Assembly: GCA_000531095.1 (NCBI GenBank)
Contig: HG799463.1
Coordinates: forward strand, 948,670-1,012,669
Length of the DNA stretch: 64,000 nucleotides
Source of the DNA: Gemmata massiliana
Lineage (GTDB): Bacteria; Planctomycetota; Planctomycetia; Gemmatales; Gemmataceae
Direction: 5' to 3'
Below the pieces are notes generated by a model, which was not told the origin of the DNA, searched no databases, and saw only the letters and a list, made by a program, of their open reading frames with translations. Positions within the stretch are counted from its first letter, which is position 1. Each line of letters begins with the position of its first letter. Positions 1-2,430 of this stretch are shown piece by piece. A program made the position numbers and the translations under genes.

Positions 1-1
1 C

Positions 2-28
2 ATAACTTCGTATAATGTATGCTATACG
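2..28. other. Partial loxP site (probable library-linker remnant)
   Basis: Bases 2-14 match one complete 13-bp arm of the phage P1 loxP site, bases 15-22 match its 8-bp asymmetric spacer (ATGTATGC), and bases 23-28 match the first six bases of the second arm. The match then stops abruptly and GC-rich planctomycete coding sequence begins. Twenty-seven consecutive matches to loxP are not expected by chance. Cre/loxP circularisation linkers were used in 454 paired-end libraries, so a linker or vector remnant at a contig edge is the simplest reading. Confidence 0.85.
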
Positions 29-2430
29 GTAGGGCCGTCGCGGGGGCCGTCGCGGCCTACCGCGCGGGCCTCGAACAGCGACTGCGAGGCGCCGAGCGCG
101 AGCGGGCCGCCGCCGAGGCCCGCGCGGCCGAACAGCGGAAGAAGCGGCGCGTGCAACTGGCACTGGCCGCCTCGGTCGTCGCCCTGGTTGGGTCGGTCGG
201 TGCGGGAGCGTGGTGGCAGGACCGTCGGGTAGCGGACCAGCAGCGCGACGAGGAGCGCCGGCAGTTCGCCGAGCGCGAGCGCCGGGACCGGAACGCGGCG
301 GCGCTCGACGACTTGCTGGCGCACTGCGAGGACCGGTTGCGGCAGGGCGACGCCGATCGGGCCGAGGAGGTGTTGCGCCGAGTCGAAGAGCGGTTCGCCG
401 ACGGCGGCGCGGCCGGCGCCAACGAGCGCCGGGGCCGCCTCCGAGCCGAACTCGCGCTGCTCAGGGAACTCGATCGCGTCCACGATCTGGAGTGGGGGGT
501 CATCAAGGGCGAACATACCAAAAAGGAGCGATTGATCGCCGCTTGGTCCGAGGCGCTGCGCCCGCTCGGGTTTACCGCGAGTTCGATGCCGTCGGACGAG
601 ACGGCGAACCGGATCCGAGACGCAATGACCCGCGAGCAGGTGCTCGGGGCGCTGGAGAACTGGTTCTGGACGCAACCGTCCGACGAGGTGCTGGCCCTGC
701 TCCGGGTGGCCGACCCCGACGGGTACCGCAACGACGTCCGCGCGGCCCGGCGAGGCGAGAACGTGGCGCGGTTGCACGAACTGGCGCGAGCACCAGAGGG
801 GCTCCGCCAGCCGGCCCGGTTCGCTCTCCTGCTCGCCCGCGAAACTTGGCTCCCGCCCGCGAGGCGCGACCAGATCCTCCAGACCCTCTACCAGCGGCAG
901 CCGAACGACTTCCACGTGCTGATGGACCTCGCGGCGGTGCGCCCGGGCGAGCGCACCGAGCGCACCGCCGAACGGGTGGGGTGGTACCGCGCCGCGATCG
1001 CAGTACACCCCCGCAACGTCCCCGCCTGGAACAATCTCGGCAACGCCCTGCACACCCTGGGCCAGTTCCCGTCGGCGATCACCGCGTACCGGGAAGCCAT
1101 TCGACTCGATCCGAAGTTCGCCGTGGCGTACTCCAACCTCGGGAACGCACTGCGCGATTCAAAGGACTTGCCCGGCGCCGCCGCCGCCTTCAAGGATGCC
1201 GTCCGACTCGACCCCGGCTACGCCCTCGGGCACAACAACCTCGCCAACGCCCTGCAAGACGCGGGGGATCTGCCCGGGGCGCTCGCGGCCTTCAGGGAAG
1301 CCGTTCGGCTCAAACCCGACTTCGCCCTGGCGCACTCGAACATGGCGAGTGCCCTTTGTGAATCGGGGGATCCGCGGGCGGCGGTCGCGGCGTGCCGGGA
1401 GGCCGTTCGGCTCGCCCCGGCGGACGCACCGTTCCGCTCCAATCTGGGGAGCGCCCTGCGCGAGGCGGGCGATCCGGACGGGGCGATCGGTGCTTACGAG
1501 GACGCGATTCGACTCGATCCGCGGTACGCGCCGGCCCGATCCAACTTGGGGACGGCCCTGCGCGACCGGGGCGACCTGCGGGGTGCGATCGCGGCCTATC
1601 AAGAGGCGATCCAACTCGACCCGAAATTTGCCCCGGCCCACTCCCACCTCGGGAACGCGCTCCGCGAGGCCGGCGACCTGCGAGCCGCGACCGCGGCGTG
1701 CGAGGAAGCGGTCCGACTCGACCCGAGCCAGGCGCACGCGCACTATCACCTGGGACTGGTCCTGAAGGCCGCCGGCGACGCACCCGGGGCCGTCACCGCG
1801 TACCGAGAAGCGATCCGGCTCCGGCCCACATTCGCCCCGGCGCACAACAACCTCGGGATCGCGCTGAAAGCCGCCGGCGACCTGCCGGGGGCCGTCACCG
1901 CGTACCGGGCCGCGGTCCGAACCGACCCCAAGTACGCCCCGGCCTACAACAATCTCGGGGTCGCGCTGAAAGCCGCCGGCGACCTGCCGGGCGCTATTGG
2001 CGCCTACCAAGACGCCGTGCGACTCGATCCGAAACACGTGTCCGCCAACTACAACCTGGGCCTCGCGCTGACGGCGAGGGGCGACGCGCCGGGGGCGATC
2101 GCCGCGTACCGACGGGCCCTCCGGCTCAACCCCGACCTCCTCCCCGCTCACGCCAGTTTAGCGCCGTTACTACAGGCATCCGGCGACCTGCCGGGGACCG
2201 TTGCCGCGTACCGCGAGGTGATCCGACTAGCTCCCCGGCACGCCGGCGCCCACGCCGCGCTCGGGTTGGCCTTGTTGGAGTCGGGCGACGCGGGGGCCGG
2301 GCGGGCGGCGTTTGCCGAAGCGGTGCGCCTCGACCCGAAACAATTCGGGCCACCGTTTCGCGCGCGCTTCCCCCTACCCGTTGCCCCCCCTCCTCGTGAG
2401 GCGAAGTCGCCCACCCGCGAGCGCGATTAA
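19..2430 (+). CDS. TPR-repeat C-terminal part of a membrane-anchored (probable Ser/Thr kinase) protein, 5' truncated
   Basis: The first ATG lies inside the loxP-like sequence, so genuine coding sequence starts only at about base 29 and the N-terminus is missing. What remains has an Arg/Glu/Ala-rich coiled segment, one membrane span at about residues 44-66, a charged helical stretch, a poorly characterised middle region (about 90-330), and 13 consecutive 34-residue tetratricopeptide repeats to about residue 780. Repeats carry the canonical NLG-A and AI-RLDP signatures. In planctomycetes this juxtamembrane-plus-TPR architecture usually follows an N-terminal Hanks-type Ser/Thr kinase domain. That kinase assignment is inference, because no kinase motif is present in the window. 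TPR arrays serve as protein-interaction scaffolds. Confidence 0.75.
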   Translation: MLYGRAVAGAVAAYRAGLEQRLRGAERERAAAEARAAEQRKKRRVQLALAASVVALVGSVGAGAWWQDRRVADQQRDEERRQFAERERRDRNAAALDDLLAHCEDRLRQGDADRAEEVLRRVEERFADGGAAGANERRGRLRAELALLRELDRVHDLEWGVIKGEHTKKERLIAAWSEALRPLGFTASSMPSDETANRIRDAMTREQVLGALENWFWTQPSDEVLALLRVADPDGYRNDVRAARRGENVARLHELARAPEGLRQPARFALLLARETWLPPARRDQILQTLYQRQPNDFHVLMDLAAVRPGERTERTAERVGWYRAAIAVHPRNVPAWNNLGNALHTLGQFPSAITAYREAIRLDPKFAVAYSNLGNALRDSKDLPGAAAAFKDAVRLDPGYALGHNNLANALQDAGDLPGALAAFREAVRLKPDFALAHSNMASALCESGDPRAAVAACREAVRLAPADAPFRSNLGSALREAGDPDGAIGAYEDAIRLDPRYAPARSNLGTALRDRGDLRGAIAAYQEAIQLDPKFAPAHSHLGNALREAGDLRAATAACEEAVRLDPSQAHAHYHLGLVLKAAGDAPGAVTAYREAIRLRPTFAPAHNNLGIALKAAGDLPGAVTAYRAAVRTDPKYAPAYNNLGVALKAAGDLPGAIGAYQDAVRLDPKHVSANYNLGLALTARGDAPGAIAAYRRALRLNPDLLPAHASLAPLLQASGDLPGTVAAYREVIRLAPRHAGAHAALGLALLESGDAGAGRAAFAEAVRLDPKQFGPPFRARFPLPVAPPPREAKSPTRERD

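Follow-up and report, generated by a model that had tools for sequence, protein, structure and literature searches.

A loxP-like remnant beside a scaffold gap in Gemmata massiliana is very probably a residual 454 Titanium paired-end linker

The first letters of the stretch studied here raise the question of how a piece of loxP came to stand inside a gene of Gemmata massiliana, and whether it belongs to the chromosome at all. The window, by which the whole 64-kb stretch of analysed DNA is meant, matches, at positions 2-28, bases 1-27 of the 34-base loxP site, with 27 of 27 identical. These read ATAACTTCGTATA-ATGTATGC-TATACG, that is 13 + 8 + 6 contiguous loxP bases, as the preliminary description had stated, and natural phage P1 loxP has the same 27 bases. 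A search of the window with the 27-mer, allowing up to three mismatches, gave one match, while the same search gave none in 100 dinucleotide-preserving shuffles of the window. The GC content is 0.32 over positions 1-28 and 0.65 over the window as a whole (64.9%); 74 of the 63,944 other 28-mers in the window are equally GC-poor, and low GC alone is therefore insufficient to single out this segment.

The remnant lies at the right-hand side of an assembly gap. A run of 25 N occupies G000:C2:948645-948669 (G000 being the genome itself and C2 the scaffold), and window base 1 (G000:C2:948670) is the first base after it; the 64-kb window itself contains no N letters. Scaffold C2 is 1,263,687 bases long and the remnant is internal to it, so the earlier placement at a left edge is right for the window, and the contig end assumed there is an internal gap. 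Compared with the 42-base linker of the Roche 454 Titanium paired-end protocol, the window copy is the same over positions 5-31, but it is truncated at both ends and differs from it at base 1. It carries neither of the non-loxP tetranucleotides that flank loxP in this linker (TCGT and TACG), since the single base on its left is C and its right end is cut. The assignment of the window copy to the Roche linker thus rests on the other copies in the genome, which do carry these flanks.

The Gemmata massiliana assembly comprises 22 contigs and 9,269,192 bases and is given as 96.5% complete. It was found to contain 26 exact copies of the 27-mer, against none for a reversed-pattern control; when up to one mismatch was allowed, half-sites numbered 132 in the genome and two in the control. 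The 96 exact 13-base half-sites fall in 65 linkers, 26 in forward and 39 in reverse orientation; the count includes only copies having at least one exact half-site, so the genome holds at least 65. End-to-end alignment over 42 bases was obtained for 24 of the 65, and many of the others are truncated, at varying points. The exact 34-base loxP is present in 24 linkers, and at least one of the Roche tetranucleotides in 54, with the full-length copies viewed in their context mostly continuing into ACGA or TACG. When the assembly was searched for the complete 42-base linker, as the preliminary description had suggested, this returned the exact 42-mer in nine of the 65 copies; together with the 54 flanked copies, this bears out its identification of the 27 bases as a piece of the 454 Titanium linker. 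The linkers are enriched near gaps: 21 of 65 have an N run within 100 bases, whereas about 1.5% of all positions in the fetched regions would be that close to one. In those same regions 41 of the 65 are more than 200 bases from any N run, and many thus stand in seemingly continuous sequence.

Some N-run lengths recur at distant places. Among 47 runs in the fetched regions, a length of 58 occurs six times, 114 three times, and 271, 307, 475, 259 and 85 twice each; the linker at C11:160160 also stands beside a run of 58. Direct repeats of 44-191 bases within 400 bases, on both sides of the linker, were seen at five loci (L049, L045, L044, L058 and L060), as if overlapping contig ends had been joined through the linker.

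If a linker marks the junction of a circularised fragment, the sequence on one of its sides is predicted to recur in the same orientation beyond the other side of that linker, about one insert length away. The 64 linkers used for this test have 128 flanks (at most 60 bases each), of which nine were too short or contained N and 119 were tested, with no less than 7.7 kb available to either side and with only the best match recorded. A second copy was found for 30 of the 119 flanks and none for the other 89. The best copy was more than 500 bases away in 17 cases, and in 16 of these 17 it had the strand and side of a mate pair, at distances of 646-6008 bases. The single distant exception is at C3:700018, and one of the 16 agreeing flanks, at C6:134123, has six matches and lies in a repetitive place. 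With a chance of 1 in 4 for each case, and the cases taken as independent, 16 or more agreements among 17 would be expected by chance about 3 times in a billion. The remaining 13 copies were less than 500 bases away. Twelve of these share the strand, and some of the twelve resemble contig ends that overlap; the thirteenth is on the opposite strand. The 14 matches of 30 lacking mate-pair geometry are therefore these 12 same-strand repeats and two opposite-strand matches. Of 510 control 60-mers, 29 also had a copy, and some of these are reciprocal to linker flanks. For the 65th linker, C11:160160, neither flank has a copy (the left-flank query contained N letters). The 60-base right flank of the window's own copy has no second copy in its 20-kb region, and its left side offers one base before the N run. 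A narrower form of the test, superseded by the wider one, covered 20 regions, in which 16 tails ran from a linker to an N run. Seven were well above shuffled controls, six of them with mate-pair geometry; for the seventh, L205, the copy is 157 bases away and belongs to a repeat on the two sides of the gap. Nothing clear came from the nine tails that remain.

What the remnant interrupts is a gene for a Ser/Thr protein kinase with TPR repeats. Right of the gap, Pfam matches TPR repeats in the frame that runs through 29-2430, and the open reading frame from the ATG at 19 to 2430 encodes 803 amino acids, having its start within the loxP spacer. Left of the gap, Pfam matches Pkinase (PF00069) over profile positions 1-210 of 263, where the match is ended by the gap. 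A query from the right-hand part found some match in all 41 genomes searched, the own genome included. Ten of 19 homologous loci from other genomes were examined, and in nine of them the kinase match and the window-part match lie within one open reading frame; at L188 and L192 the kinase match is partial, the window-part match of L188 beginning at residue 80, and the tenth locus, L194, has a shorter frame with no kinase match. The gene thus has the Pkinase-then-TPR layout of planctomycete kinases of this kind, but unlike these homologues it is split by gap and linker and is frameshifted. The earlier claims of a junction inside a gene and of an artificial ATG agree with this. The N-terminus had further been thought missing and probably a kinase domain; its nature was correctly foreseen, whereas the domain is not lost and lies left of the gap, about nine codons being missing.

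Table 1. Features at the window start and in the surrounding genome (positions are those of the window unless a scaffold is named; base 28 can be assigned to the linker or to the resuming coding sequence)
Feature	Position	Strand or place	Basis
Single base between 25-N gap and linker	1..1	+	C seen; 42-base linker has T
Very probable truncated 454 Titanium paired-end (loxP) linker, linker positions 5-31 of 42	2..28	+	Sequence identity
False start codon ATG inside loxP spacer	19..21	+	ORF reading
Coding sequence resuming: C-terminal TPR part of Ser/Thr kinase-TPR protein	29..2430	+	Pfam, homologues
Kinase part, outside the window	G000:C2:947630-948644 (L017:8961-9975)	Left of gap	Pfam Pkinase
Tyrosine recombinases like P1 Cre	C1:1557272-1558102; C5:904198-904986; C3:1052663-1053502	G000	27-30% identity

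The size of the missing piece can be estimated from the homologues. In nine of nine, nine residues separate the positions that correspond to SLCKQFAE and GRAV of the Gemmata massiliana protein, and this constant spacing suggests that about nine codons (about 27 bases) are absent where the assembly has 25 N, one base and the linker. One extra T in a run of four (L017:9949-9952; G000:C2:948618-948621) slips the kinase frame left of the gap and gives the upstream fragment a false stop just before it; a one-base over-call in a T run is a typical 454 error. GC is also low in the 28 bases to the left of the gap, and a foreign origin was considered for them. It was rejected because their other frame gives SLCKQFAE, which aligns with SLCKRCLS and similar stretches in the homologues. 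A 25-base piece of them occurs once in the genome at up to three mismatches, and, to judge from this alignment, the stretch resembles normal coding sequence that follows the T-run over-call.

Among 392 genomes of the phylum, a sample in which this genome is the only member of its genus, the 34-base loxP was found in this genome only. Among 19 genomes of the genus, the 27-mer was likewise found in this one and was absent from the 18 others. The exact 42-mer is present in other assemblies of a GTDB-based collection, in at least 100 stretches with at least 129 copies. The carriers are at least nine organisms belonging to several unrelated groups: Candidatus Paracaedibacter symbiosus, Rickettsia endosymbiont of Diachasma alloeum, Legionella tunisiensis, Clostridium sartagoforme, Kitasatospora cheerisanensis, Agrobacterium genomosp. 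13, Litoribacter populi, Paenibacillus sp. PAMC 26794 and Streptococcus macacae. In Litoribacter populi, four exact linkers stand in a row near one end of each of two short scaffolds (L094:194-622 and L117:147-557), with spacings of 129 and 123 bases, perhaps as tandem library junk. Titles and abstract openings of the literature on linker contamination of deposited genomes were also searched, and this linker was not met among the matches listed.

Published records indicate where such a linker could have come from. An excerpt of the likely source paper describes Gemmata massiliana IIL30 as sequenced on 454 Titanium from 3-kb paired-end and shotgun libraries and assembled with Newbler 2.8, into 22 scaffolds and 417 contigs with 9,249,437 bp and 64.07% GC (PMC4672568); the assembly used here differs from that size by 19,755 bases. 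The same excerpt states that open reading frames spanning gaps were eliminated. Both orientations of the 42-base sequence are printed, in a passage of PMC5199103, among adapters screened from mate-pair libraries made with the Roche circularization adaptor and Cre.

Several other origins of the loxP bases have to be weighed. The sites might be real ones in the chromosome, derived from the DNA of a P1-like phage or plasmid, or belonging to a native system of the Cre-lox type. The bases are indeed loxP, and three tyrosine recombinases of this genome match P1 Cre at 27-30% identity with E values of 3e-16 to 6e-12 (a fourth has E 0.5); such matches are presumably what any general member of the Xer/integrase family would give, and no close Cre gene was found in this assembly, 96.5% complete, the best identity being those 27-30%. 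Compared on the right side, the flank of P1 lox, ATTAAGGG, differs from that of the full-length copies in the genome; 54 of the 65 copies have at least one flank of the Roche linker. Natural P1 loxP also differs from what is seen here in that the genome has 65 scattered copies. That the point of truncation varies among these copies, that they are enriched near N gaps, that their flanks recur with mate-pair geometry and that the 27-mer occurs in none of the 18 other genomes of the genus all speak against real sites, which we regard as exceedingly unlikely. The special case of a strain whose chromosome truly contains loxP-like sites by the dozen, spread by a Cre-like element, has a practically negligible probability.

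Human handling of the strain offers another source, because certain cloning vectors and engineered strains carry loxP. A BAC or fosmid vector, or Cre-lox engineering of the strain, would be expected to leave one or a few sites and not 65; moreover, in the contexts viewed, the linkers adjoin an N run or sequence that is mostly, judged by composition only, of the genome's own GC, and their flanks match the sequencing linker. This origin is accordingly extremely improbable. A closer relative of the preferred reading keeps the Roche adaptor and changes the reads, which would then be Illumina reads of a hybrid library with Roche circularisation. The 42-base adapter is printed for such a library in the passage of PMC5199103, and part of PMC3507753 reports Roche/454 circularization adapters with a LoxP linker in another study. 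The excerpt of PMC4672568, in contrast, describes 454 Titanium libraries only for the likely source project. The one-base T over-call beside the gap is also an error of the 454 type, and we consider a hybrid library very unlikely.

The reading that these data favour, and that we hold with high confidence, is that window positions 2-28 are a residual Roche 454 Titanium paired-end linker, an artefact without biological function. All 42 bases of that linker are present in nine other copies of the genome, the mate geometry was found at other copies, and the window's own copy presumably arose as they did. In such a library the ends of genomic fragments receive loxP adaptors and Cre circularises the fragment, so that reads run from one end through the loxP linker into the other end. 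Linkers that were incompletely recognised, being truncated or carrying base-call errors, may have been retained in part by the reads, probably through a failure of trimming. Reads bearing them could then have entered the consensus, both at the ends of contigs and where gaps were filled, and gap filling would be a plausible route into places where no gap is now seen. On this reading, the contig right of the 25-N gap begins with such a remnant inside the kinase-TPR gene, and its loxP spacer supplies the false ATG.

The meaning of the finding is practical only. At least 65 linker remnants stand in the draft that serves as reference for the species, and through one of them and its gap a kinase-TPR gene is present in two pieces, one with a false start and the other with a false stop. 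Using the 42-mer and its truncated forms as a query would expose erroneous starts, genes that have been split and chimaeric joins.
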